DNA from: Flavobacteriaceae bacterium
GTDB taxonomy: Bacteria > Bacteroidota > Bacteroidia > Flavobacteriales > Flavobacteriaceae
DNA length: 64,000 bases
NCBI GenBank assembly: GCA_021647985.1
Contig: JAKITQ010000001.1
Coordinates: forward strand, 62,001 to 126,000
Direction: 5' to 3'
Each line of letters opens with the position of its first letter. Within the stretch, counting starts at the first letter, position 1. The notes beneath the pieces were generated by a model, which was given only the letters and a program-made list of their open reading frames with translations, did not search any database and was not told the DNA's origin. Shown piece after piece: positions 13,306 through 62,769 of the stretch. The translations under genes were made by a program, and so were the position numbers.

Positions 13306-13332
13306 TGACCTACATCAAGAAAAAATATAAAA

Positions 13333-40703: not shown

Positions 40704-43442
40704 CTAATTAAATTTTAGATTCTTTTTAATTTCAGCCTGTGCAGAAGCAAGTCGTGCAATAGGCACTCGATATGGTGAACAACTAATATAATCCATTCCT
40801 GAATTGTAGAAAAATTCAATAGAATTTGGTTCGCCACCATGTTCGCCACAAATACCGATTTTTAATTTAGGATTTGTACTTCTCCCTTTATCAATTCCCA
40901 TTTTAACCAATTGACCAACACCTACTTCATCAATAACTTCAAAAGGGTCGACCTTTAAAATGCCTTTTTCAATATATATCGGTAAAAACTTACCGGCATC
41001 ATCTCTTGAATATCCAAAGGTCATTTGAGTGAGGTCATTCGTTCCAAATGAAAAGAATTCTGCCCTTTGTGCAATTAAATCGGCAGTAACCGCAGCTCTT
41101 GGAATTTCAATCATAGCACCAACTGAATATAAAATCATATCTTTTCTTTCCTCAAAAACTTTATTAGCTGTGGCACGAATTACATTTTCCTGTTCAACAA
41201 ATTCTCTTAAGGTACCAATTAAAGGAACCATAATCTCAGGGTTTGTTTTAATACCTTTTTCCTTTAAATTTAACGCAGCTTCAATAATTGCCCTTGTTTG
41301 CATTTCGGTAATTTCCGGATAGGTATTTCCTAACCTACAACCTCTGTGACCTAGCATAGGATTGAATTCTTCCAATTGAGCAACCTTATTTTTAACCGCT
41401 TCTAAAGAAATATGCATGTCTTCTGCAAGGTCTTTTTGAGTTGCCAATTGATGAGGAACAAATTCATGTAAAGGGGGATCTAATAAACGAATCGTTACAG
41501 GTAAACCTTCCATTGCTTCGAAAATACCTTCAAAATCACCTCTTTGCATAGGTAATAATTCCTCTAATGCTTGTTTTCGGCCTTTGATAGTTTCAGCCAA
41601 GATCATCTCACGCATGGCTTTAATCCGATTGGTATCAAAGAACATGTGTTCTGTTCTTGTCAATCCAATGCCTTGCGCACCAAAGTTTTTAGCAATTTTT
41701 GCATCTTTAGGACTATCGGCATTAGTTCTCACTTTCATGGAAGCATATTTATTTGATAAGTTCATGATCTTTTCAAATTCATCACTTAATTCTGGCTCAA
41801 TAGTTGCTACCTTTCCTTCAATTATATTTCCAACACTACCATTTAAAGAGATCCAGTCACCTTCGTGATATTTTTTGCCATCGACAATCATGGTTCTTGT
41901 TTTATAATTTATTCGAAGTGATCCGGCACCCGAAATACAACATTTGCCAATTCCACGTGCAACAACAGCCGCATGGGAGGTCATACCACCACGAGCAGTT
42001 AAAATACCTTTGGCAATATGCATGCCTTCAAGATCTTCCGGAGAGGTCTCTATTCGAGTTAAAATAGAATATTTATATTTATTAGCTTCATCGGCAAAGA
42101 AAACTAATTGACCAGTTGCTGCACCTGGTGACGCAGGTAACCCCTGAGCAATTATAGTTGCTTTTTTTAACGCTTTCGGATCGAAAATAGGATGTAATAA
42201 TTCATCTAACTTATTAGGTTCTATACGCAATAATGCTTCTTCTTCATTGATAGATCCATCCTCTAATAATTCAATGGCAATTTTAACCATTGCCGCACCT
42301 GTACGTTTACCATTTCTGGTTTGTAATATCCAGAGTTTTCCTTCTTGCATGGTAAACTCCATATCTTGCATATCCCGATAGTGTTTTTCAAGTTTATCTT
42401 GATATTCATTTAGTTCATTAAAAATGGAAGGCATTAACTCTTCTAAGGAAGGATATTTTTCTATTCTAAGCGCTTCATCTATTTTAGCCAATTCAGCCCA
42501 GCGTTTAGACCCTATTTTTGTGATTTGTTGTGGAGTTCTAACACCAGCTACCACATCTTCACCCTGTGCATTAATCAAATATTCTCCATTGAATATATTT
42601 TCACCAGTTCCGGCATCTCGGGTAAAACATACACCGGTACCAGAATTGGTTCCCATGTTCCCATAAACCATGGCTTGTACATTTACTGCCGTTCCCCAAT
42701 GAGCAGGGTAACCATGCATATTTCTGTAATAGATTGCTCTATTGCCATTCCAACTGTCAAACACAGCTGTTACAGCACCCCAGAGTTGATCCCATGGGTC
42801 TGTTGGAAAATCATGCCCCGTACGCTTTTTTACAGCATCCTTAAAATCATAAACCAAATCTTGAAGGTCTTGAATAGTGAATTCTGTATCCAATTCAATT
42901 TTTCTTTTTTCTTTAAGATTCTCCATTATTTCCTCAAATGGATCGATATCATCTTTTGTTTCGGGTTTCATACCCAATACTACACTGCCATACATTTGAA
43001 TAAATCTGCGGTAGGAATCCCAGGCAAAACTTTTATTATTCGTTTTGCGTGATAAACCTAAAACAATCTCATGGTTTAATCCAAGATTTAAAACAGTATC
43101 CATCATTCCAGGCATGGATACTCGAGCTCCTGATCGAATTGAGATTAATAATGGATTGTCTTTATCTCCAAATTTTGAGCCCATTATATTTTCAATGTTT
43201 TCTATGGCTTTTTTAACATCTTCTTTTATTAGTTCAATTACGGCATCTTTTCCAAGTTCATTATAAGTGGTGCAAACCTCAGTAGTTATAGTAAACCCAG
43301 GAGGTACCGGTATACCTAATGAACTCATTTCAGCCAAATTAGCCCCTTTACCGCCCAATAGATTTTTCATTTGACTGCTGCCGTCAGCCGTTTTGTTACC
43401 GAATTTGAATACACTTGCTTTCATTTCTTGTAATAGTTCCAT
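40704..43442 (-). CDS. ppdK: Pyruvate, phosphate dikinase
   Basis: LLGGKGANLAEMSSLGIPVPPGFTITTEVC; GILTARGGMTSHAAVVARGIGKCCISGAG; GTNDLTQMTFGYSRDDAGKFL. Confidence 0.97.
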   Translation of the reverse strand: MELLQEMKASVFKFGNKTADGSSQMKNLLGGKGANLAEMSSLGIPVPPGFTITTEVCTTYNELGKDAVIELIKEDVKKAIENIENIMGSKFGDKDNPLLISIRSGARVSMPGMMDTVLNLGLNHEIVLGLSRKTNNKSFAWDSYRRFIQMYGSVVLGMKPETKDDIDPFEEIMENLKEKRKIELDTEFTIQDLQDLVYDFKDAVKKRTGHDFPTDPWDQLWGAVTAVFDSWNGNRAIYYRNMHGYPAHWGTAVNVQAMVYGNMGTNSGTGVCFTRDAGTGENIFNGEYLINAQGEDVVAGVRTPQQITKIGSKRWAELAKIDEALRIEKYPSLEELMPSIFNELNEYQDKLEKHYRDMQDMEFTMQEGKLWILQTRNGKRTGAAMVKIAIELLEDGSINEEEALLRIEPNKLDELLHPIFDPKALKKATIIAQGLPASPGAATGQLVFFADEANKYKYSILTRIETSPEDLEGMHIAKGILTARGGMTSHAAVVARGIGKCCISGAGSLRINYKTRTMIVDGKKYHEGDWISLNGSVGNIIEGKVATIEPELSDEFEKIMNLSNKYASMKVRTNADSPKDAKIAKNFGAQGIGLTRTEHMFFDTNRIKAMREMILAETIKGRKQALEELLPMQRGDFEGIFEAMEGLPVTIRLLDPPLHEFVPHQLATQKDLAEDMHISLEAVKNKVAQLEEFNPMLGHRGCRLGNTYPEITEMQTRAIIEAALNLKEKGIKTNPEIMVPLIGTLREFVEQENVIRATANKVFEERKDMILYSVGAMIEIPRAAVTADLIAQRAEFFSFGTNDLTQMTFGYSRDDAGKFLPIYIEKGILKVDPFEVIDEVGVGQLVKMGIDKGRSTNPKLKIGICGEHGGEPNSIEFFYNSGMDYISCSPYRVPIARLASAQAEIKKNLKFN

Positions 43443-43571: not shown

Positions 43572-43614
43572 TAAATTTAATAATTTTTAAACTGATTAGT
43601 AATGACTTAAATCA
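43572..43614 (-). promoter_or_regulatory. Putative FNR/CRP-type site (one mismatch) with spaced -7-like element upstream of ppdK
   Basis: TGACTTAAATCA 43603-43614 (centre 43608.5); minus-strand TAAATTTA 43572-43579, spacing 36.5. Confidence 0.35.
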
Positions 43615-50278: not shown

Positions 50279-50683
50279 TTACTCTACCAGAGTCCTCATA
50301 TAATTTACAACAAGCCACCTGTCTTCATCGTCAGGTAATTTTTTTGTATATTCTGGCATATCGTCTCTACCTTCCGTAGTTTTATAAAATAATGCGCCAT
50401 CACTTTGGGCTTGAAACTCTGCAGTAGAAAAATCTCCTAAATCACCTTCTACTTCATCTGCTTTTGTACCATCACCGTAGCCTTCTTTACCATGACAAGA
50501 CTTGCAATGTTTGTTGTACAAAGATTTACCTATGGCAATATTTTCTTTGTCTGCCTTATCTGTAGGGTTTTTCATGTTTTCATACTTTTCTGGAACTTTC
50601 CATTCATCTTGAACAATAAGTGAAAAAGAATAAAGAGCAAATGCTGCAATTGCGATCATTGATAATATTAAATTTTTTCTCAT
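50279..50683 (-). CDS. Monoheme c-type cytochrome
   Basis: Signal peptide MRKNLILSMIAIAAFALYSFS; one CKSCHG; MPEYTKKLPDDEDRWLVVNYMRTL cytochrome c class I C-terminus; start at internal ATG 50683. Confidence 0.9.
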   Translation of the reverse strand: MRKNLILSMIAIAAFALYSFSLIVQDEWKVPEKYENMKNPTDKADKENIAIGKSLYNKHCKSCHGKEGYGDGTKADEVEGDLGDFSTAEFQAQSDGALFYKTTEGRDDMPEYTKKLPDDEDRWLVVNYMRTLVE

Positions 50684-50734: not shown

Positions 50735-50777
50735 CAAATATCAGTAACATTGGTTATTTAAATTATGATTTAAATCA
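50735..50777 (-). promoter_or_regulatory. Putative FNR/CRP-type site and promoter of the monoheme cytochrome
   Basis: TGATTTAAATCA 50766-50777 (centre 50771.5); minus-strand GATATTTG 50735-50742, spacing 36.5. Confidence 0.55.
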
Positions 50778-50788
50778 GTTTCAAAAAA

Positions 50789-53700
50789 CTAATTTACTTT
50801 ATGATTTGTCTTCTTACTTTTAATGCCAGCAGCTATAATTAAAATTAATAATAATAGAATCGTAATCCAAGCCCATATTGGAAAAACGGGTGTTTCACCA
50901 CTTGCATAACTGTGTAATCCTTTAGATAAATAATAGTTTACACCAAAAAATGTCATAAGTACACTCGCAAAACTTATAATAGATCCTACATTAAAAATAT
51001 ATAAACTTTTCATTTTAGGTACCAATCTAAAGTGTAGTATAATGGTATAAGCCATTACAATAACCAATGCCCATGTTTCTTTGGCATCCCACCCCCAATA
51101 TCTACCCCAAGATTCATTAGCCCAAATACCTCCAAGAAATGTTCCAACTGTAGCTAAAAACAAACCAATTGTTATATTCATTTCATTGATTTGAGTAAGC
51201 TCTTTGATAATTAAATTAATTCTTTTACCATTTTTTTTATTTTTAATTAAATAGAGTGTCATATTCATCAATCCAAGTACAAATCCCAGACCTAAAAATC
51301 CATAACTAATGGTAAGGGTGGCAACATGAATAATTAACCAATACGATTTAAGTACTGGTTGTAGATTGGTTAATTGCGGGTCGTAACTACTATGACTAGC
51401 AGTCATTAGTGTAAAAAAGGCCAATAAAGCTGTCGCAGCTAAGGTTATTTTAGAATAGCGAATAAAACTAAACCCTGCTAGTAAACTACCCCACGACACC
51501 AATATTAGAGCCTCATATCCATTACTCCAAGGAGCATGACCTGATAGGTACCATCTTAAAGCCATACCATATGTATGATAAATAAATGCAATGCCTAATA
51601 ATAAAATGAAAAAATTCAGAGTATAGCTTAATATTTTACTTTTTTTATCTTTTAAATTATCAATAAAAGCAAGCACCAATAATATCACACTTAGCAGAGC
51701 ATAAATATTTTTTAAATTAATAAATATTTTTGCTTTGGTGTATTGTATTTCTTTATCAACTTTTGATTTAGAAGGTAATATAAGAGCAGAATCACTTTGT
51801 CTTTGAATATTATCTAAATATCCTAAGATCTTATTTGCTCTAGTATAATCACCTGACTTTGTTGCTTGAAATACTTCTGTTAAATATTTTTTAAACAGAT
51901 TGTTATAATTAAATTCTTTTAATTGTAAATCGTCATTTAATATTTTTATAGATCCTTTTAAAGGGTTTTTAGCAATTGGATCCATCCAATTGATCCATTT
52001 ATTATTTGAAGATTCTTGGTCTGGGAAAATATTGAGTAATTTACCTTGAAACCCTAGCATAAAAATTTCAACACGTTCATTTATTTTAATAATTTCTTTA
52101 TCAAAAACATTTTGTTCTGTAGGTTTTTTTCTAAACGCTGGTTCTGCAACAGACCTTAATTTATAATCGCCTTTTTCGTTAAAAAAGTCATTAAATGATG
52201 CGTATTTCCCTTCTGCGCCAATAATATTCATAACAGCTTGTTCACGTACATAAATAATTTTTTGTTGTTTCCAAAACTCTGCATTCAAGATTATATCCAT
52301 AAATACCTGCATAGCATCCATTTTTCCTTTTGTTGGAATATCAAAATTATCTTTTCTTGATATTTTATGCATTACGTCGTAAGCCAGTGTATTGATAGGT
52401 ACAAATCTTCCGCTGTAATTTTGAACAAGTAAATTTCCGAATTTTTTAGCATGAACAACACCAACAGAATTTTGATCTACATTATGGATGTGATTTGTAT
52501 TATTATCTTGAGAGTAGGTATTTCCAACAAAAATAATACCAAATATCATCGTAGCAATAAGTGATTTCCTTTTGGCTCGTGTATTCTTTATTTTATGAAT
52601 TAATTCATGATATCTAGAATTTTTATTGAATAATGTAGCAATAAAACCTAATCCCATAAGTAAGTATCCTATATAAGAGATCCAAGTGCCATAAAAATCA
52701 TGATTTACAGATAATACAGTTCCTTTTTCATCTTTGTCATAGGAAGATTGAAAAAAACGATAACCCTTATAATCTAATACATTATTCATATAAATTCTGT
52801 GATCTTCACTTAAGCCCTTATTCTTATCTATTAAGGTAACTTCACTAGCGTAAGATGATGGGCTATCAGAACCGGCGTATCTTTCTAATATAAATTTATT
52901 TAAATGAAGAGAAAATGGCAATTCTATTTGTTTCATACCATAAGACATTGCTATATCAATACCATCGATATTAACTTTTTGAAAATTGTTAACATAACCT
53001 CTACCTCCCAAGATAGCAACTTCTTTATCTTTTCCATTAACCGAAAGATTTACCAATAAAACATCAGGGCCTCTAGCTTCGTCATTTCCGGCAACATATT
53101 TTATTTTTGCGTTATTATACATCTTGGTTAATACAAATCCAATACCTGTTTCTAAAGGTTCATATAAATATTTTGGTTTCAATTCGCCTATAGAGTCTTT
53201 TGGTATTTCACCAATAGTTAATTCGGGCATTTTACTTGTTTTAATTGCACCAGGATAGCTAATTAGTGTTTTGCCATTATTGCTTATCAGTATAACTGCA
53301 TCTTCTCGATCATAATTATTATAGGCAAAAAAATGTCCATGAGTCTCTTTGATTTCGCCGTCCTTAATTAAAATAATGTCTTTATGACCGTCTACACTTA
53401 CCGTTAATTCTATTACTTTGATACCTTTTTGATCACTTTCTAGGTAGGTTTCTGTGGCATTCTTTAGGTAATCTTTATAACTTACCTCGATTTTAGATTT
53501 TTCATTAGTTTCTATTTCTACATTAAAATAATTATCTGTAATTGCACTAAAGTTTATCAATCGATCTACCTTGTAATTTAGTTTGTTTTCTACTGCATTT
53601 ACAATTAAATATGGATCGGAGCTTACCATAATATTTGATGATTCACCTTCACGTATATGCATACTTCCTTCAAACCCAATGTATCTTGTTACACCAGCAC

Positions 53701-53971
53701 CAATAATAACAACGATAAACGCTGAATGAAATAAAAGCCCAGTCCATCTACCTATGCGGTACAAGTGATACTTTTTAATACTTCCAATAAAGTTTACTGC
53801 CAATAAAAATAATAGAAACTCAAACCATTTAGCATTGTATATCAGTAATTTAGCTGTTATTGTGTCGTAGCTATCTTCAACAAAAGTAGCAGCGGCTATG
53901 GCAATTGTAAAAATTATGAGTAGAATTAAAGTGGCTTTTGACGAAATTATTAAATTGATAAGTTTTTTCAT
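50789..53971 (-). CDS. Fused ResB/CcsA (CcsBA) system II cytochrome c synthase
   Basis: ResB-like N-terminal half (LLFHSAFIVVIIGAGVTRYIGFEGSMHIREGES) and CcsA WWD-type motif GGIWANESWGRYWGWDAKETWALV. Confidence 0.93.
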   Translation of the reverse strand: MKKLINLIISSKATLILLIIFTIAIAAATFVEDSYDTITAKLLIYNAKWFEFLLFLLAVNFIGSIKKYHLYRIGRWTGLLFHSAFIVVIIGAGVTRYIGFEGSMHIREGESSNIMVSSDPYLIVNAVENKLNYKVDRLINFSAITDNYFNVEIETNEKSKIEVSYKDYLKNATETYLESDQKGIKVIELTVSVDGHKDIILIKDGEIKETHGHFFAYNNYDREDAVILISNNGKTLISYPGAIKTSKMPELTIGEIPKDSIGELKPKYLYEPLETGIGFVLTKMYNNAKIKYVAGNDEARGPDVLLVNLSVNGKDKEVAILGGRGYVNNFQKVNIDGIDIAMSYGMKQIELPFSLHLNKFILERYAGSDSPSSYASEVTLIDKNKGLSEDHRIYMNNVLDYKGYRFFQSSYDKDEKGTVLSVNHDFYGTWISYIGYLLMGLGFIATLFNKNSRYHELIHKIKNTRAKRKSLIATMIFGIIFVGNTYSQDNNTNHIHNVDQNSVGVVHAKKFGNLLVQNYSGRFVPINTLAYDVMHKISRKDNFDIPTKGKMDAMQVFMDIILNAEFWKQQKIIYVREQAVMNIIGAEGKYASFNDFFNEKGDYKLRSVAEPAFRKKPTEQNVFDKEIIKINERVEIFMLGFQGKLLNIFPDQESSNNKWINWMDPIAKNPLKGSIKILNDDLQLKEFNYNNLFKKYLTEVFQATKSGDYTRANKILGYLDNIQRQSDSALILPSKSKVDKEIQYTKAKIFINLKNIYALLSVILLVLAFIDNLKDKKSKILSYTLNFFILLLGIAFIYHTYGMALRWYLSGHAPWSNGYEALILVSWGSLLAGFSFIRYSKITLAATALLAFFTLMTASHSSYDPQLTNLQPVLKSYWLIIHVATLTISYGFLGLGFVLGLMNMTLYLIKNKKNGKRINLIIKELTQINEMNITIGLFLATVGTFLGGIWANESWGRYWGWDAKETWALVIVMAYTIILHFRLVPKMKSLYIFNVGSIISFASVLMTFFGVNYYLSKGLHSYASGETPVFPIWAWITILLLLILIIAAGIKSKKTNHKVN

Positions 53972-54011
53972 GATTGCTTTTGAATTAATTTCTAGTTGGA
54001 TAAATTTACGT

Positions 54012-54085
54012 CAAAAATATTTAAATATTTTCATGTAAATTATGATTAAAATCATAAGTATTATAACATATGTTGCGGATATTTG
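54012..54085. promoter_or_regulatory. Putative FNR/CRP-type site in a divergent promoter (ccsBA / NrfJ-like)
   Basis: TTATGAT-TAAA-ATCATAA 54040-54057 (centre 54048.5); plus GATATTTG 54078-54085 and minus TATTTTTG 54012-54019, both 36.5 nt from centre. Confidence 0.65.
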
Positions 54086-54118
54086 TATCAAATTAAATAA
54101 ATAACTAAATAAATTAAT

Positions 54119-54835
54119 ATGAAAAAAATTATTATTTTTCTTGTAATGATTGGTTTCTTTTTGAGCTGTCAAAATAATAATAAATCACAAGGAGAGAACC
54201 AAACAGATGTTCACGGTGTTAAAGTTCAAGAAGTTTTGCAAGTTAGTGAATATACCTATTTACGAGTTTTAGAAGATGGAAAAGAGAAATGGCTGGCAGC
54301 GCCTTCGGTTCAGGTAGAGAAAGGAAAAACATACTATTTTAAAAATGGTATGGAAATGACGAATTTTGAAAGTAAAGAATTAAATAAAACTTTTGAAAAG
54401 ATTTATTTTATAGATAAGTTAAGCACAGATCCTAATATGAAAGTGGAAACGGCAAATTCGAGTATTCCAAAAAAGAATGACATGTCGCATCAGGCAACCA
54501 AACCAAAACTGGAAAAGGCAAAAGTTCAAATTCCACCAACAGAAGGTATTGTTACGATAGCAGAATTGTATGAAAATATTAAAAAATATGAAGGAAAACA
54601 AATTAAGATAAGAGGAAAAGTGACCAAATATAATCCTGCAATTTTGAAAAAAAATTGGATCCACCTTCAGGATGGCACGGCATTTAATGATAAATTTGAT
54701 TTTACAGCAACCATAAATAACGAAGTTAAAGTGGGCGATTTTGTTACCATAGAAGGTGTTATTGCCGTAAATAAAGATTTTGGCTATGGTTATGTTTATG
54801 AAGTGATTATGGAAAATGCCAGTTTGGTTAAATAA
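54119..54835 (+). CDS. NrfJ-like / OB-fold-containing lipoprotein
   Basis: Lipobox FFLSCQNN; VQEVLQVSEYTYLRVLEDGKEKWLAAPSVQVEKGKTYYFKNGMEMTNFESKELNKTFEKIYFI; C-terminal GKQIKIRGKVTKYNPAILKKNWIHLQDGT OB-like. Confidence 0.65.
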   Translation: MKKIIIFLVMIGFFLSCQNNNKSQGENQTDVHGVKVQEVLQVSEYTYLRVLEDGKEKWLAAPSVQVEKGKTYYFKNGMEMTNFESKELNKTFEKIYFIDKLSTDPNMKVETANSSIPKKNDMSHQATKPKLEKAKVQIPPTEGIVTIAELYENIKKYEGKQIKIRGKVTKYNPAILKKNWIHLQDGTAFNDKFDFTATINNEVKVGDFVTIEGVIAVNKDFGYGYVYEVIMENASLVK

Positions 54836-54857
54836 GAACCTTTTCAATTCAACAAGG

Positions 54858-55559
54858 ATGCATTATAAAAAGTTTTTAATATTGGTGTTGTTTATCGCTT
54901 TATACAATATCAGTTCAGCACAAGTTACAAGTTCAAAATTCAATAAAATTACAGTTAAAGAAATTCTACAAGTAAGTTCTTATACCTATTTATTTGTAGA
55001 TGAAGGTGCTGAAAATAAATGGTTGGCGGTTCCGTATTTTGATGCAAAAATAGGTGGCGTTTATTATTACAAAGGTGGTATGGAAATGGTTAATTTTGAA
55101 AGTAAGGAGTTAAATAAGACCTTTGAATCCGTTTATTTTATATCCGCAATTTATGATAACCCATTCGAAGAAAAAAAAACTACTTATAAACACGCAACAG
55201 ATGCTGATCTAAAAAATGACAGTCAGCAAAAAAACGAAAAATTAAATTTAAAGTTAAAACCATTAGAAGGAGGTGTTTCGATAGCTGAATTATTCAAAAA
55301 TAAAAATCAATATTCCGGTAAAAAAATTAAGATAAAAGGGCAGGTTACAAAGTTCAGTATGCAAGTAATGCGTAAAAACTGGATACATTTACAAGATGGA
55401 ACTGATTACAATAATAATTTTGATTTGACCTTAACATCAAATGCCGAAGTAAAAGTAGGAGATATTATTGTTTTAGAAGGAATTGTTTATTTAGATAAGG
55501 ATTTTGGCTATGGGTATTTTTATGAGCTAATCATTGAAAATGCCATTTTAATCAAATAG
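54858..55559 (+). CDS. NrfJ-like / OB-fold-containing exported protein, tandem paralogue
   Basis: VKEILQVSSYTYLFVDEGAENKWLAVPYFDAKIGGVYYYKGGMEMVNFESKELNKTFESVYFI and GKKIKIKGQVTKFSMQVMRKNWIHLQDGTDYNNNFDLTL; start at internal ATG 54858. Confidence 0.65.
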   Translation: MHYKKFLILVLFIALYNISSAQVTSSKFNKITVKEILQVSSYTYLFVDEGAENKWLAVPYFDAKIGGVYYYKGGMEMVNFESKELNKTFESVYFISAIYDNPFEEKKTTYKHATDADLKNDSQQKNEKLNLKLKPLEGGVSIAELFKNKNQYSGKKIKIKGQVTKFSMQVMRKNWIHLQDGTDYNNNFDLTLTSNAEVKVGDIIVLEGIVYLDKDFGYGYFYELIIENAILIK

Positions 55560-55707
55560 ATTTTTCATTGCTGTCCGATTAAGATTTACTATTGAATTTT
55601 ATAAAAAATAATATTAATCCAAATCATTGTTTACGTCATAGTTATAATCAAGTCTTTGCTCTTAAAACGTAACAGTCTTTTATCTTTTGTTGGAAACTAA
55701 TATTTAA

Positions 55708-56517
55708 CTATTTTTTATGACATGTTAAACATAGGGCACTGCCGTCGTTAGATTTCCACAAAGATAAAGATTTAGTAACCATACCTCCACCTGCTTGAAT
55801 TTGATGGCAACCAACACAGCCTTGTGTATTTCTTGAAATATGTACATCATGACACGATGTACATTCCAATCTGTCATTTTCCAAAAGGTCTACTTCTATT
55901 GTATTTCCCAATCCTGAAGATGTAGAACTTGGATCGTGTAAATAACCATCAACATCTGCCAAAGCTGAATCATATATTACAGAAATTGGGTGATCATTTC
56001 GCAGATTTGTTGAAATATTTCCGAAACCCACAAATGCTGTTCCATTTGTAAAACCGCTATGATTGTCAACTGCTACAGTTCCATCATGACAAGAGAGGCA
56101 AAGCTTTGATTTTCCTAATGGTTGCCCCAATACCCCATCTAAAGTTGGGCTAGTATACATTTCGAACACGCTACTGGTTACCTGATGATTCCATAAAGGA
56201 GAGTCAGGCACTTCCAAATTAGCATTATGTGGGGTGTGACAGGGTTTGCAATATTCATTTCCACTCCATGATGCCCTACTAAAATCATGATGGCTCAACC
56301 TAAGCCCCTGACCAATTGTTATACTACAGAATAGTAATAATAAGACTGTAAAAATCGTGCTTTTTATTGATTTTTCTTTTTGAATGTTAGATTTTAATTC
56401 TAATAATTGATAAATAAAATTTAGAAATAGAGGCAATAAATATAGTGTGAATTTGAATTTTACACTTTTATAAAAAAGATTGTTTACTAATAATATTTTG
56501 AAAATTTGGGTTTTCAT
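55708..56517 (-). CDS. Pentaheme c-type cytochrome (cytochrome c3 / doubled-CXXCH family)
   Basis: Five CXXCH (CKPCH, CLSCH, CTSCH, CVGCH, CLTCH); paralogue of 62063..62686; start codon uncertain. Confidence 0.88.
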   Translation of the reverse strand: MKTQIFKILLVNNLFYKSVKFKFTLYLLPLFLNFIYQLLELKSNIQKEKSIKSTIFTVLLLLFCSITIGQGLRLSHHDFSRASWSGNEYCKPCHTPHNANLEVPDSPLWNHQVTSSVFEMYTSPTLDGVLGQPLGKSKLCLSCHDGTVAVDNHSGFTNGTAFVGFGNISTNLRNDHPISVIYDSALADVDGYLHDPSSTSSGLGNTIEVDLLENDRLECTSCHDVHISRNTQGCVGCHQIQAGGGMVTKSLSLWKSNDGSALCLTCHKK

Positions 56518-56582
56518 AACGGTTTGATATTTATTCGTATATATCTTGTAATATACATTAAAAATAATTCTTTACACTTAAT

Positions 56583-57644
56583 TCACCTTGTATATCTTTT
56601 TTCTTTATGACAACCTTTACAAGATCCACCATCTTCATAATTTTTAAAGACCAATGGCATATTCCATTTACCAAATTTCACCGTTTCCGGAATTAGATGT
56701 TCTCGAGATGAACCATGCAAACTATGGCAATTATTACATGTTCTACCTTTTTCTTTATTCACATGTAAAAAATGCAAATTTCTATCGCCATCTCTAAATT
56801 CTGTGGCATACTTGGTTCTTTCTTCTAAAAGCAAATCGGCATCATGACATTCAAAACACATTTCGTAATTTTCTTCGGTGCCTTTTGCATAGTTTCCTGT
56901 AGGGTAGGAGGTTGTCATCAAAAATTTGTTATTGGAAGCATGGGGATCATGGCAGGCGTTACAACTTTTTTCAAGCGCTTCATGAACAAATTTACTATCT
57001 TCTAGTAATTTGCCAATATTTGTTATTTTCCTATCATCTACAGTAATAGTTTTATCATGGCAGCTTAAACACAATTCTCTACCACCAGAAATAAGTAATT
57101 TTTTTCGTGAAGAAGAATGCGGTGAGTGACAGCCTATACATCCATCTTCGTCAGTAGCAGGTGAATGTACAAGGGTTGACTCTTCAATGATTTTTTCAAT
57201 TTCATCATGGCAAAAATAACACAAATCAGGTGCTTTTGCAAAAATGAATTTAGGGTCATTAGAACTGTGTATTTCATGGCATTCAGAACATTCACCTTTA
57301 GCAACAGGCTTGTGCACATATTTGTTTTTAATGATGGCATCTTTTTCTTCGTCATGGCAAGAAAAACAAAGGTCTGCACCTTCTTCTAAATAAGTAAAGC
57401 TTTCAATATCTTCTACTGGATGCTTTTTACCATTGGGCTTGTGACAACTAATACAATCGGACGCTGGGCCGTGAAGAATTTCCTTTTTAATAGTTCTCTT
57501 ATGACATTCTATACAAGTTTTTTCCTTTTTTTGTCCGTAAATATTTACCTGGAATAGTAATACGCAAATAAGTGTTAATCCTTGAAAATATTTGGCATTG
57601 GTTAACCAAAACATTGGGTTCGAAGTTTTTTTAAAGATTTTCAT
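56583..57644 (-). CDS. Undecaheme c-type cytochrome, doubled-CXXCH repeats, predicted periplasmic
   Basis: Eleven CXXCH motifs (CIECH, CISCH, CFSCH, CSECH, CYFCH, CIGCH, CLSCH, CNACH, CFECH, CNNCH, CKGCH). Confidence 0.93.
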   Translation of the reverse strand: MKIFKKTSNPMFWLTNAKYFQGLTLICVLLFQVNIYGQKKEKTCIECHKRTIKKEILHGPASDCISCHKPNGKKHPVEDIESFTYLEEGADLCFSCHDEEKDAIIKNKYVHKPVAKGECSECHEIHSSNDPKFIFAKAPDLCYFCHDEIEKIIEESTLVHSPATDEDGCIGCHSPHSSSRKKLLISGGRELCLSCHDKTITVDDRKITNIGKLLEDSKFVHEALEKSCNACHDPHASNNKFLMTTSYPTGNYAKGTEENYEMCFECHDADLLLEERTKYATEFRDGDRNLHFLHVNKEKGRTCNNCHSLHGSSREHLIPETVKFGKWNMPLVFKNYEDGGSCKGCHKEKRYTR

Positions 57645-57673
57645 TATTAGTTATTTTTATGTTTGTTAATATT

Positions 57674-59659
57674 TTAAAATCGCCTTGAAATTTTAAGTGA
57701 AACTTTGTTAAAATCTAATTGTTCATCTACCAATTCACGTCGATATATTTCTGCAGCTGCTGTAATAAATATTTGACGATATATGGTTGTAAACTCAAGC
57801 CTTGTGGTTAATAAATTTAAATATATTCCTTTTGCATCTCCATCTTGTTTTCGATAACCTCCTTCTAAATTTATTCTTGTTTTTGGCGTGAAATTATAGG
57901 TAATGTTTCCGGAAAGATTATAGTACACTTGTCTTTGCCCTTCAAATTCAATCATTAAATAATCTATAAATTCGCTATTTAAAGAATAATTCAATTTTTG
58001 ATTGATATTTCCTTGCAGTATTAAATAATAGCGCATCAATCGATAAGGTATTATCGTACTGTCGTAATTATCATATTCAATACCTCCACTTAAAAATTTA
58101 TAATTGAAACGAGTTCCGTAAAGGTTTTTATTAAAATAATTTAATGTTAGATTTTCTTGGTTTTCAATATCTATATAATCTTGTTTGGATCTATTTACAT
58201 AAAACTCTAATAGGTTTTTAAATAAGCTTACTCTTATGCCAAAAAAGTTGTTAATGGAATTAAATTTGTAAGAAAGTGGTTGATCGGCTTCATAATCTAT
58301 TAAAACTGTCGTGTTATTTGCAATGAGGCCACCTGGCACTCGTTGTATTTCAAGAAATTCATTTCTTTGAATTAAAATATAATCCAAATTTAATTGGTAT
58401 ATAATCGTGTTTGTAACATCCCTAACAATCACAGTTGGTAAAATTATGTCTTGATTTTTTAGCAGTACTATTTGACCATCAATCAATCTATGTGTTTCAT
58501 TTTGAACGACCAATGTTTCTGAATCTCCTTGCCTGTTTTGTTTGTTAGAGTTAATTCTATAAGTCATTGATAAATGCCCGTTTAACGGAATTTTTTTATC
58601 GTAAATAATATCGAACCCAGCTCTTCTAACGTTATCTTGAAATTGTGTATTGTTAATAATATTATATTCTAAAGAAGCTGTAGTTCTTAAACTTTTGTAC
58701 AACTGATGTGTTATTGAACTATTGATATTATGTTGTTTAGAAACTTGAGCATCAGACCTATAATCATTAAAATTATAACCGCTATACCATGTGAAGTTTT
58801 TTGGTAATTTAAAAGTTAAGTTTTCTAAAACCTGAAATCTTTTAAAATTTATATTACCATACTGGTTGTCATTTATAATTCTTGATCTTAGATTGTAATT
58901 TTTTTTAGAATCGAAATATATATTATTATTAAGATTCCATGTAGTAATATTGCTTTCTACAAGTTTACCATTGGGGTTGGTTGAAGCATTGATAAAACTA
59001 TCATCATAGGTGTATTCACTATGTGAAAATCTAAACTCATTTCTATCATACTGACCGAATGTTTTGGTCGCTCGGGCATCAATATTATTTCTTTCGGTTT
59101 TAAATATTCTTGTGGTTTGAATTTCTTCCTGTTCTCCTTTTCCTCTATCGTAGGAAATAAAAAGGGGTGCAATTTTATTAGAATAATTGAGCGATCCACC
59201 ATAGGTATAATTTTTTGTTTTGATATTTGTTAGGTTTTCTCTGTTACTGTAATTTTCATTGTAATTGATAAAAAAATTGAAATTAAAATCATTTCGTTGT
59301 AAAAAGGTCGTTTTGATATACAATTTTTTTAAACTATGTGTCTCATTTCTATCCGGTGTGACTAAAGAATATCTTTGTCCGGTATCGGGGCTATAACCTA
59401 TATTAAAATCTAAGGTTAAAAAATTAGGGTGGTAAAAATAACTGTTGGTATTCAATAATAATCCAGCAGAAAATAAGGAGCTTTGCTCATCAATTTTATT
59501 GTTGTTTCTAACAGTTACCTGATCCCAATAAGTTCCATACAAATTTACTTCACCACTATAGTAATTCAATTTCCAAAAAGAAGTCTTGGTAGTCGAATTT
59601 TGCGAATAACTATATAAAGTAATTAATAAAATGATATATGTAAATTTTATTCTATGCAT
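57674..59659 (-). CDS. Outer membrane beta-barrel protein (candidate porin of a porin-cytochrome complex)
   Basis: Signal peptide ...LYSYSQN; many alternating amphipathic strands throughout; C-terminal ...VSLKISRRF; embedded between two multiheme cytochrome genes (gaps 6 and 29 bp). Confidence 0.75.
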   Translation of the reverse strand: MHRIKFTYIILLITLYSYSQNSTTKTSFWKLNYYSGEVNLYGTYWDQVTVRNNNKIDEQSSLFSAGLLLNTNSYFYHPNFLTLDFNIGYSPDTGQRYSLVTPDRNETHSLKKLYIKTTFLQRNDFNFNFFINYNENYSNRENLTNIKTKNYTYGGSLNYSNKIAPLFISYDRGKGEQEEIQTTRIFKTERNNIDARATKTFGQYDRNEFRFSHSEYTYDDSFINASTNPNGKLVESNITTWNLNNNIYFDSKKNYNLRSRIINDNQYGNINFKRFQVLENLTFKLPKNFTWYSGYNFNDYRSDAQVSKQHNINSSITHQLYKSLRTTASLEYNIINNTQFQDNVRRAGFDIIYDKKIPLNGHLSMTYRINSNKQNRQGDSETLVVQNETHRLIDGQIVLLKNQDIILPTVIVRDVTNTIIYQLNLDYILIQRNEFLEIQRVPGGLIANNTTVLIDYEADQPLSYKFNSINNFFGIRVSLFKNLLEFYVNRSKQDYIDIENQENLTLNYFNKNLYGTRFNYKFLSGGIEYDNYDSTIIPYRLMRYYLILQGNINQKLNYSLNSEFIDYLMIEFEGQRQVYYNLSGNITYNFTPKTRINLEGGYRKQDGDAKGIYLNLLTTRLEFTTIYRQIFITAAAEIYRRELVDEQLDFNKVSLKISRRF

Positions 59660-59665
59660 CCCAGA

Positions 59666-60514
59666 TCAATTAAAAATAAAATTTTCATTACTTCCTCCGT
59701 GAGGATCATGACATTCCGCACAATTTTTATCTTCCGTTTTTTTATGTGCTTCACTTTTGTACAATTCTTTTGAATCATGACAGTTGGTACATAAGTTATC
59801 AATAGAAGCTATTAATAACTTGGGATTGTCTGTTTCATGTGATCCATGGCATTGCGAACAATTATCTGAAGCCACAGGAGCATGCAAAAATTTAAATTCT
59901 TTTTCATAATTATCATGACATTCATAACAACTCCCTGCCAACAAGCTATAATTATTGTTTCCACCATGAGCACTGTGGCATGTGGTACAACTTTCTTCTT
60001 CAATTTCTTTGTGAATTTTATCCGCAACAATTAAGGCTTCATCATGACAGCTTAAACAGAGATCCTGACCTTTTTGAATGAGTAATTTTTTGAATTTAGA
60101 TTGGTGGGGGTTATGACATTCTGAACAATTTCCAGCTGCTACAGGGCCATGTAATACGGCATACGTTTCGTTGAAATTATCATGACATTCATAGCATAAT
60201 TCGGGAGTGGGTGCCTTGGTTTTTCCCATGGCATTTCTATCATGGCAACTTGAACACTCTCTTTTTTGATAAGGTTCATGTAAGTTTAAATCATTTCTCG
60301 TATCATATGCTCTTCTGGTTATTAGCATTGAAGTGCTATCTGCTACCGACATAGAATCTTTTACAACACTAACTTCAACTTTATCGAGGACAGGAACCCC
60401 ATCAAACAAAAATGATTGTACATCATGACTAAACTTAGGAGAACAATTCCAAAACAATAAAGATATTATAACAATGCCTAATGAACGTATATTTTTAATT
60501 TTATCAAAAAACAT
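59666..60514 (-). CDS. Nonaheme c-type cytochrome lipoprotein
   Basis: Lipobox SLLFWNCSPKF; nine CXXCH (CSSCH, CYECH, CSECH, CLSCH, CTTCH, CYECH, CSQCH, CTNCH, CAECH). Confidence 0.93.
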   Translation of the reverse strand: MFFDKIKNIRSLGIVIISLLFWNCSPKFSHDVQSFLFDGVPVLDKVEVSVVKDSMSVADSTSMLITRRAYDTRNDLNLHEPYQKRECSSCHDRNAMGKTKAPTPELCYECHDNFNETYAVLHGPVAAGNCSECHNPHQSKFKKLLIQKGQDLCLSCHDEALIVADKIHKEIEEESCTTCHSAHGGNNNYSLLAGSCYECHDNYEKEFKFLHAPVASDNCSQCHGSHETDNPKLLIASIDNLCTNCHDSKELYKSEAHKKTEDKNCAECHDPHGGSNENFIFN

Positions 60515-60592
60515 GTATTGTTAGTTTAACATGGTTTGAAATTTTATTTCATTCAATCATATAAAATTTAAATGAATAGCAATTAAGCTCAA

Positions 60593-61663
60593 TTATTTTT
60601 TTATTTCCTTTCTGTATTTATCTCTAATTCTTCCGTATACACTAACCTTGTCAGGTCCAAATTGATTGGTAACATAGATCAAGTATTCTAAATCGTATTT
60701 AGGATCTACATACTCTTGAAAATATTGTAAATTATCATAATCAATTCTAACTTTTACAGGAAGCCACATCCCTCCAGGTCCTTTATAAGCGCCACCGAAA
60801 TACAGTAATAATTTGCCATCTTTATCAAAAATTTGTACATTTTCAAAGCTTGCATCCACCACGTATAAATTTTCTTCTTTGTCAACTGCTACGCCCTTTG
60901 GGCGAACAAAATCACCTATTCTATCACCATATTTACCTACGGAGCTTAAATATTCTCCTTTATGAGTATAAATTTTCACATTACTACCAGCCATATCCGT
61001 GACATAAACTTTATTTTCAGAAACAAATATATTTGTAGGTTTAAACAAATAGCTTTCGTCATCTTGTTCTGATTTTGGGAAATAAAAATCAAATGCGTAG
61101 GTCTTTCTATTGTAAACATTAACTCTGTGATTGCCAGAATCAACCACCCATATTTTATCTCCTTTCACAAAAACATCTGTAGGTTTTAGATTTTCTTTTT
61201 TACCAAATGAAGTAACATATTCTTTATTTTTATCAAATACCATTATTTTTTGAAGCGTTATATCAGCGATATAGAGTTGATCATTTTTATCTACATAAAT
61301 ATTAAGAGGTAATTTTAATTGGTATTGATCTTTCGGAATAAAGTAATTAAATTCTTTATTTTCTAAATCAATTATTTCTAATCCGGCAATATTAACATCA
61401 CAAACATACATTTTACCGTTACGAACAAATACCCCGTAAGGTTTTAAAATGGATTGCACTTTGTCTTCACCAACAATAGATTTAGAAAATGCAGATTGTT
61501 TTACGACATCTTTGGAGGTACTTATACTGGTTAAATATTGTATTCGGCCTGCATCTGGTGGCGGTGGATAAATAATAGATTTACTTGTACTTTGATTTAA
61601 TTTTGGAGAGCATGCACTAAGAAACGAAAATATCGCAAATATTAGATAGATTATAGACCTCAT
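60593..61663 (-). CDS. NHL-repeat / six-bladed beta-propeller lipoprotein
   Basis: Lipobox SFLSACSPKL; repeats LKPYGVFVRNGKMYVCDVN, LPLNIYVDKNDQLYIADI, KPTDVFVKGDKIWVVDSGNHRVNVYN, RPKGVAVDKEENLYVVDASFENVQIFDKDG. Confidence 0.88.
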   Translation of the reverse strand: MRSIIYLIFAIFSFLSACSPKLNQSTSKSIIYPPPPDAGRIQYLTSISTSKDVVKQSAFSKSIVGEDKVQSILKPYGVFVRNGKMYVCDVNIAGLEIIDLENKEFNYFIPKDQYQLKLPLNIYVDKNDQLYIADITLQKIMVFDKNKEYVTSFGKKENLKPTDVFVKGDKIWVVDSGNHRVNVYNRKTYAFDFYFPKSEQDDESYLFKPTNIFVSENKVYVTDMAGSNVKIYTHKGEYLSSVGKYGDRIGDFVRPKGVAVDKEENLYVVDASFENVQIFDKDGKLLLYFGGAYKGPGGMWLPVKVRIDYDNLQYFQEYVDPKYDLEYLIYVTNQFGPDKVSVYGRIRDKYRKEIKK

Positions 61664-61716
61664 AATGTGAATTTTTATTACTTGATTAGTAGAGTTATTT
61701 GTTTTTAAGTATTGGT

Positions 61717-61759
61717 TAAAAGTATTAATAAAGTTAGCTACAGCCTATGATTAATATCA
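61717..61759 (-). promoter_or_regulatory. Putative FNR/CRP-type site and promoter of the NHL-cytochrome-barrel operon
   Basis: TGATTAATATCA 61748-61759 (centre 61753.5); minus-strand TACTTTTA 61717-61724, spacing 36.5. Confidence 0.5.
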
Positions 61760-61954
61760 GTTTTGGGCTAATAATCAGTTAAATAAGGCCAATAATTACA
61801 AGTTTTTATGAACAATATTTTTTGGAGTGCTATATAACTGTTTTGATTCTTTTAATATAATGTGGACTAGGGTGCTTTATTTTAATAAAAGATATTGTAT
61901 TTGATTCCGTAATAAAAAGCGAGATTAGCCTGCCTATAGTAGGTTTTGCTAATA

Positions 61955-61990
61955 TTGATATATTTTCATCAAAAGATGAAAATATATCAA
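61955..61990. repeat. Perfect 16-bp inverted repeat with AAAA loop
   Basis: TTGATATATTTTCATC-AAAA-GATGAAAATATATCAA. Confidence 0.9.
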
Positions 61991-62017
61991 TAAGTTTCAC
62001 TAATAAAATATTTACAT

Positions 62018-62046
62018 AAAAAAAGGGCAATCATTGCCCTTTTTTT
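62018..62046 (-). terminator. Rho-independent terminator of tetraheme cytochrome gene
   Basis: AGGGCAAT-c-ATTGCCCT flanked by A/T runs. Confidence 0.8.
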
Positions 62047-62062
62047 ATTGCGTCAAACTATT

Positions 62063-62686
62063 TTATTTATCATGACAAGTTAAACAAAGTGCACTTCCTG
62101 CGTTAGTTACTCTTAATAGGTTGGGTAATCCAGCTCCATTATGAACATCATGACAAGACGAGCATTGTAATTGACCTGCTAGTAAAAAATCTGCGTCAAT
62201 TGTACCTCCAACACCAGAATTTGTTGTTGTAGGGTCGTACAAGCCACCATCACTAGTTGCTAAAGCAGCATCATAAGTAAACGAAATTGGGTGGTCATTA
62301 GATAGGTCTGTACCAATAAGGTCACCACCAGTCATAAAGTCACCACCATTGGTTCTACCACCAAAATTGTCCATTGCTACAGTACCATCATGACAACTTA
62401 AGCATAATTTAGATGCACCAGAGGGTTGCCCTATAGTTGCAGAACCTTCAAAAGAAGGTGAATCATAAAGTGTAAAATTAGCTTGGGTTACTTCGTGATT
62501 CCATAAAGGAGCATCAGGTACAGTAATGTCCGCATTGTGAGGCGTATGACATACAATACAAATCTCTCCAGTATTGTTCCAGTTTTCAGTAGAAAAATCA
62601 TGATCCGATCCTGTTATTTGGCTAAAACCAAATGATGACATCAACATGACTAAACTTAGTGTTAAAAATAATTTTGTTTTTTTCAT
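62063..62686 (-). CDS. Tetraheme c-type cytochrome (cytochrome c3 / doubled-CXXCH family), secreted
   Basis: Signal peptide MKKTKLFLTLSLVMLMSSFGFSQ; four CXXCH (CIVCH, CLSCH, CSSCH, CLTCH). Confidence 0.92.
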   Translation of the reverse strand: MKKTKLFLTLSLVMLMSSFGFSQITGSDHDFSTENWNNTGEICIVCHTPHNADITVPDAPLWNHEVTQANFTLYDSPSFEGSATIGQPSGASKLCLSCHDGTVAMDNFGGRTNGGDFMTGGDLIGTDLSNDHPISFTYDAALATSDGGLYDPTTTNSGVGGTIDADFLLAGQLQCSSCHDVHNGAGLPNLLRVTNAGSALCLTCHDK

Positions 62687-62726
62687 GGTAATTAATTTAA
62701 TTTAAATTAAAATATTATTGATACAG

Positions 62727-62769
62727 TAAAATTAATGACAGAAGGGCTATAAAAAGATGATTTTTATCA
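62727..62769 (-). promoter_or_regulatory. Putative FNR/CRP-type site and promoter of tetraheme cytochrome
   Basis: ATGAT-TTTT-ATCAT, core 62758-62769 (centre 62763.5); minus-strand TAATTTTA 62727-62734, spacing 36.5. Confidence 0.5.

Follow-up and report, generated by a model that had tools for sequence, protein, structure and literature searches.

Why does the same short palindrome stand before one cytochrome gene after another, each time at one distance from the same kind of promoter element? The question is raised by a stretch of 64,000 nucleotides (nt) from a Flavobacteriaceae bacterium (assembly GCA_021647985.1, contig JAKITQ010000001.1, positions 62,001 to 126,000; hereafter the window), which holds a locus of multihaem cytochrome genes. 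The initial annotation had marked four TGATN4ATCA palindromes in it, each with a TAnnTTT(G/A)-like -7 element ending 36.5 nt from the palindrome centre, and had proposed a single regulon under an FNR/CRP class II activator, probably responding to low oxygen or another electron acceptor. All four palindromes are present and the distance was measured in all four: the elements GATATTTG, which occurs twice, TACTTTTA and TAATTTTA all end on the 37th base from the centre (Table 1). The description of the elements holds in general; GATATTTG is one base off TAnnTTTG, which had been half-stated. Very probably, then, the motif that recurs beside these genes works as a genuine switch. We suggest that the palindromes are sites of an Fnr-like activator, which would act from the class II position on one regulon at low oxygen, and we give this reading, predicted from sequence, a probability of about 0.86.

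TGATN4ATCA occurs 9 times in the window, against 2.4 expected from shuffles. When one mismatch is allowed over palindrome and -7 element taken together, the window gives eight matches at a gap of 23, and 0, 1, 1 and 1 at gaps of 22, 24, 15 and 30. One of the added matches, missing from the initial annotation, is a one-mismatch copy at the exact spacing 5' of pyruvate phosphate dikinase (centre 43608.5). The palindrome centred at 54048.5 has -7-like elements at exactly 36.5 nt on both sides. The second of them, TATTTTTG, is absent from the initial annotation and stands equally far from the centre on the opposite strand, thus the palindrome fits two divergent promoters, and we infer that it serves both. 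A further right-spaced site is found just beyond the window edge, 5' of the NHL2-undecahaem unit (L067:12992; G, L and C numbers denote genomes, loci and contigs).

Genome-wide counts were obtained by pattern searches of palindrome plus -7 element over a range of spacings; their P values assume uniform spacing, and the relatives are non-independent. The genome itself (G000; 3.0 Mb, 80 contigs, 86.6% complete) contains 153 TGATN4ATCA sites. With ANNTTTG as the partner and 31 spacings, 10 of 42 matches have the right spacing (P 7e-7), and with TANNTTTH and 30 spacings 9 of 52 do (P 5e-5). For the genus relatives, 39 of 116 among the matches listed are right-spaced (P 7e-29), as are 16 of 65 in six genomes from other families of the order (P 2e-10). 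A scan of 148 genomes of the phylum compared the spacing 43 with a control spacing of 38, five bases shorter. It gave 65 vs 4 matches in the own family (covered in our searches by at least 119 genera); family f5 of the order had 8 vs 0, and the remainder of the class 22 vs 3. Outside the class no excess is seen (14 vs 13), which rules out that the architecture is general in the phylum; because of these counts we regard it as restricted to this family, order and class.

The strongest single evidence comes from G011, the only one among 19 genus genomes in which the NHL protein has a close counterpart (51% identical). In its syntenic locus six of six matching promoters have a palindrome, mismatched at one base or none, with a -7-like element at gap 23. 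These are the promoters of the tetrahaem, NHL, NHL2-undecahaem and monohaem genes and the two that flank the ccsBA|NrfJ-like interval. The two-sided arrangement of 54048.5 is thus present at the same place. No such pair occurs in the G011 locus at gaps 22, 24 or 13, and the bases around the pairs have diverged. Judged by this comparison, the element pair at that distance appears to be under selection.

The right-spaced sites have a recognizable anatomy. Their N4 is all A/T in 18 of 19 cases, compared with 27 of 75 elsewhere (P 3e-6), and this property was not used for selection. The flanks favour ATGAT...ATCAT (A in 13 of 18, T in 16 of 18), with the consensus aTGATWWWWATCAT, and 1 of 14 right-spaced sites lies inside an open reading frame (ORF) vs 30 of 43 others. 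The -7 box, which was partly used for selection, reads in the aligned sites T (16) or G (2), A (18), TTT (18/18) and G (10) or A (8). In Flavobacterium psychrophilum mapping of transcription start sites (TSS) places the TAnnTTTG box at -12 to -5 (PMC9723704). With this placement, taken from Flavobacterium and not from this organism, the measured -7 distance would put the palindrome centre at -41.5, the class II distance that had been claimed; E. coli FNR-activated promoters mostly have their site there (PMC3688515). No conserved TTG is found at -33 in the aligned right-spaced sites, as is expected where the activator takes its place. Separately, we note an apparently orthologous promoter with a match length of 51 (G000:C70:111856-111906, G004:C15:163556, G012:C33:113), in which the palindrome lies 8 nt further upstream and is followed by AAAACA(C/T)CTTA(T/C)TTTTG.

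We propose the following mechanism. At low oxygen the Fnr-like protein encoded at L079:5704-6393 would become active, and its dimer would bind aTGATWWWWATCAT centred at -41.5. The bound dimer would then recruit the holoenzyme of the Bacteroidota primary sigma factor to the TAnnTTT(G/A) -7 box without a -33 element. Cytochrome c maturation by ccsBA, haem synthesis, the N2O and NO reductases, the 2-oxoacid:ferredoxin oxidoreductase (POR/KOR) and the multihaem conduit would be induced together.

Table 1. Predicted promoter elements and target genes in the window. TSS positions are predictions based on the -7 box placement at -12 to -5 (PMC9723704).
Feature	Sequence	Position	Strand	Remarks
FNR-type palindrome	cTGATTTAAATCAt	50766..50777, centre 50771.5	-	monohaem cytochrome promoter
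-7-like element	GATATTTG	50735..50742	-	ends 36.5 nt from centre 50771.5; predicted TSS ~50730
FNR-type palindrome	aTGATTAAAATCAt	54043..54054, centre 54048.5	.	common to two divergent promoters
-7-like element	GATATTTG	54078..54085	+	faces NrfJ-like gene; predicted TSS ~54090
-7 element	TATTTTTG	54012..54019	-	faces ccsBA; predicted TSS ~54007
FNR-type palindrome	cTGATATTAATCAt	61748..61759, centre 61753.5	-	NHL-cytochrome-barrel operon
-7 element	TACTTTTA	61717..61724	-	palindrome centre 61753.5; predicted TSS ~61712
FNR-type palindrome	aTGATAAAAATCAt	62758..62769, centre 62763.5	-	tetrahaem cytochrome promoter
-7 element	TAATTTTA	62727..62734	-	palindrome centre 62763.5; predicted TSS ~62722
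One-mismatch palindrome	aTGATTTAAGTCAt	43603..43614, centre 43608.5	-	5' of pyruvate phosphate dikinase (40704-43442)
-7-like element	TAAATTTA	43572-43579		partner of aTGATTTAAGTCAt, spacing exact
Monohaem cytochrome c (Cytochrome_CBB3)		50279..50683	-	predicted target
ccsBA-type cytochrome c assembly protein (ResB + Cytochrom_C_asm)		50789..53971	-	predicted target
Two paralogous NrfJ-like proteins		54119-54835, 54858-55559	+	predicted target; label from the initial annotation, unconfirmed
5-haem cytochrome		55708-56517	-	Uet-like conduit operon
11-haem cytochrome		56583-57644	-	Uet-like conduit operon
Outer-membrane barrel		57674-59659	-	Uet-like conduit operon
9-haem cytochrome		59666-60514	-	Uet-like conduit operon
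NHL propeller		60593-61663	-	predicted target; Uet-like conduit operon (55708..61663)
Tetrahaem cytochrome (UetA-like)		62063..62686	-	predicted target

The regulon had been expected upstream of respiratory genes, and the right-spaced sites indeed precede respiratory, denitrification and haem genes throughout the genome. They stand before the nosZ clade II operon, before genes for a small cytochrome c (read as norC) and a haem-copper-oxidase-like subunit (read as norB), and before the POR/KOR operon, which is followed by nuo-like genes. One palindrome stands between two divergent genes, a paralogue of hemA and a UPF0093 (HemJ-like) gene, and another site precedes an operon in which hemA comes first and genes read as hemC, hemB and hemL follow. 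The other targets are a sulfide:quinone-reductase-like gene, a TonB and two DsrO/DsrP-like modules. With the spacing one base shorter, sites are found 5' of pta-ack and of the succinate dehydrogenase/fumarate reductase operon. The nos sites recur in four relatives (G004, G135, G131, G081), and the orthologues of pyruvate phosphate dikinase (PPDK) in G004 and G135 have perfect sites at the same spacing. Further targets in relatives are hemA (G004), a DsrO-like module (G131) and cbb3 oxidase genes with a HemN-like gene (G081). In an independent experiment, F. psychrophilum was seen to induce genes for cbb3 oxidase and haem synthesis when oxygen was limiting (PMC9723704). Sites precede genes of these kinds in the present genome and its relatives, which lends indirect support to an oxygen signal. 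We also note that one perfect right-spaced site precedes the gene of a 600-aa protein (L069:4426-6228) for which neither Pfam nor NCBIfam has a match. In the window, two overlapping ORFs without Pfam match lie downstream of a one-mismatch site TGATGTAGGTCA at 13306-13317 with TACTTTTG at the right spacing.

Three Crp/Fnr proteins of the genome score above the Pfam cut-off, and the one encoded at L079:5704-6393, which matches PF13545 and adjoins the cbb3 oxidase genes, is most likely the activator, as its sequence and surroundings suggest. Its best NCBIfam model is the E. coli Fnr subfamily (E 9e-28, below the model cut-off). Glu and Arg are expected at the specificity positions for TGA half-sites (PMC1274295), and only this protein of the three has both; in its two paralogues Pro or Val replaces the Glu. 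The orthologues in the genus are 70-83% identical and share an invariant recognition helix GTATESTIRLL in the aligned sequences, with equivalents of Glu209 and Arg213; position 212 is Ile, not Ser. They conserve a CxxC (C5, C8) as well as C54, C60 and C107; the protein may plausibly hold an Fe-S cluster. C26 was considered as a cluster ligand and rejected, as it is not conserved in the orthologues.

Some observations concern the regulator genes themselves. In two genus relatives (L114 and L116, ~1452-1464) the sequence TGATAAATATCA, centred at about -27.5, lies across the fnr-like gene's own promoter; this suggests autorepression. The fnr|ccoI interval of the present genome has, in place of an FNR-type site, a perfect inverted repeat GATGGAA-N7-TTCCATC (L079:5614-5634). 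The second Crp/Fnr gene (L073:16505-17520, on C53), HcpR2-like and with N-terminal stops and Pro at the specificity position, reads as decayed or mis-assembled.

How do other readings fare? It had been pointed out that motif and spacing might be equally common at random. TAnnTTTA-like strings are frequent at ~30% GC, about 1 to 1.5 chance matches per spacing are expected, and several right-spaced matches of G013 resemble chance. Nevertheless, the exact spacing is strongly over-represented in the own genome, the excess at that spacing returns in genus, family and order, and all six matching promoters of the G011 locus are conserved, so that a seeming regularity of AT-rich elements hardly deserves consideration. 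The palindromes could also be operators, either for a repressor or for a regulator from some unrelated family, as bound activator and bound repressor are indistinguishable from sequence. However, the fixed -41.5 position with no -33 element is the signature of a class II activator, whereas repressor sites vary in position, and we regard operators of this kind as very unlikely.

A more serious competitor, which we still consider improbable, keeps the sites and the class II position and assigns them to another Crp/Fnr protein, be it an NO sensor resembling DNR or one that the assembly lacks, with NO or redox as the signal. This would agree with the nos and nor-like genes among the targets, as for DNR, whose box is TTGATN4ATCAA-like (PMC1274295), and with the incompleteness of the assembly. 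But the targets also include haem synthesis, cbb3 oxidase, PPDK, KOR and ccsBA genes, a breadth typical of an oxygen regulon; the two clear paralogues do not have the Glu; and the Fnr-like gene is kept throughout the genus. Hence, we favour the Fnr-like activator and the oxygen signal. Several points weigh against it. The regulon is a prediction from sequence. At the chance level given above, the 19 exact sites probably include two or three spurious ones; C15:11200 is intragenic. The outer base of the site is mostly A (13 of 18), compared with T in the E. coli FNR box. In the candidate orthologues the equivalents of C20, C23 and C122 of E. coli FNR are conserved and that of C29 is absent, with C54 instead, thus the protein is termed only Fnr-like. 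With a metagenome-assembled genome 86.6% complete, another Crp/Fnr might be missing. Finally, distant conduit loci (L173, L174, L179) are without such sites; five distant loci were scanned and none was positive.

The E. coli FNR class II regulon (narG, nirB, dmsA, nrfA, fnrS) has in common with the proposed one the TGATN4ATCA core, the -41.5 position (predicted here) and targets in anaerobic respiration. Besides the outer base, the present system differs in the -7 box TAnnTTT(G/A) instead of a -10 element, in the target set and in a candidate regulator with conserved C54 and no C29 equivalent. DNR/ANR of denitrifying Proteobacteria share the FNR-like box 5' of nos and nor genes (PMC1274295), but the targets here are broader (haem, KOR, ccsBA, conduit), and DNR is described as having no FNR cysteine motif, whereas the candidate has the CxxC and an equivalent of C122. 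Crp/Fnr proteins have also been described in Bacteroidota as HcpR (Bacteroides, Porphyromonas); HcpR2 reads GTAACN4GTTAC, has mostly one target (hcp) and Pro at position 181 (PMC1274295). It is the C53 paralogue here that resembles this type, not the candidate activator.

Our searches, made in a library of open-access papers, turned up no account of a Bacteroidota regulon of this kind. Bacteroidota can carry clade II NosZ and hence consume N2O. The control of their clade II nosZ genes is so far little described. The promoter rule ATGATWWWWATCAT-N22-TAnnTTT(G/A) predicts low-oxygen-type targets from sequence, across the family and beyond, and it links an outer-membrane electron conduit to the same predicted switch. 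Class II activation with the unusual -7/-33 sigma thus becomes directly testable. More tentatively, Flavobacteriia and allied Bacteroidota may have a conserved anaerobic regulon under an Fnr-like sensor with re-arranged cysteines (C5, C8, C54, C107), acting at -41.5 without a -33 element, sometimes through one palindrome for two divergent promoters. Such a regulon would include a small RNA, and it would have captured the Uet-like conduit in this genus, the conduit elsewhere standing beside a histidine kinase and an NtrC-type regulator.

What the switch would control in the window resembles the Uet electron conduit. The parts list of that conduit comprises undecahaem and tetrahaem cytochromes, NHL proteins and a barrel porin (PMC10734462). 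The locus matches this list with one tetrahaem and two undecahaem cytochromes (one of the latter outside the window), a pair of NHL proteins and a large barrel. In Tenderiales and Gallionella the tetrahaem and undecahaem cytochromes, two NHL proteins and the barrel porin likewise share one locus (PMC10734462); here nine- and five-haem cytochromes are added, and no trihaem trio or peptidyl-prolyl isomerase is seen. The likeness is one of component lists, not of compared protein sequences. The AlphaFold model of the barrel (predicted local distance difference test, pLDDT, 89) has MtrB (6r2q_B) as the top structural match with Z 18.9 (root-mean-square deviation 7.1, 431 aligned), and a pilus usher is near-equal at 18.6. 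Homologous NHL-barrel pairs are present in many phyla. At L174:3993-6886 and L179:4043-6934 the conduit, in other lineages, has as neighbours a histidine kinase that bears CXXCH and a response regulator of the sigma-54 (NtrC) type, and an NtrC-like gene is present in 7 of 80 loci. A search of the window for a sigma-54 promoter at the conduit genes found none. The distant loci without palindromes and their kinase and NtrC neighbours suggest that control of the conduit was rewired in the present genus.

The right-spaced site C35:17623 (L072:5629) has no gene downstream, and we suggest the region L072:5629-5755 as a candidate FNR-activated small RNA. In E. coli such an RNA is FnrS, with the site at -42.5 (PMC3688515); the likeness is that of a small RNA as FNR target only, and no homology is claimed. 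The predicted transcript of ~85 nt (L072:5671-5755) combines an intrinsic terminator with a hairpin whose loop is G-rich (fold z -4.1). No Rfam family matches it, and a pattern search of 120 family genomes, mostly one species per genus, gave no second convincing copy. Within the genus the pattern search finds copies in G013 and G017 (L275, L277), where the same arrangement lies behind their own perfect sites and two pairs are changed on both sides.

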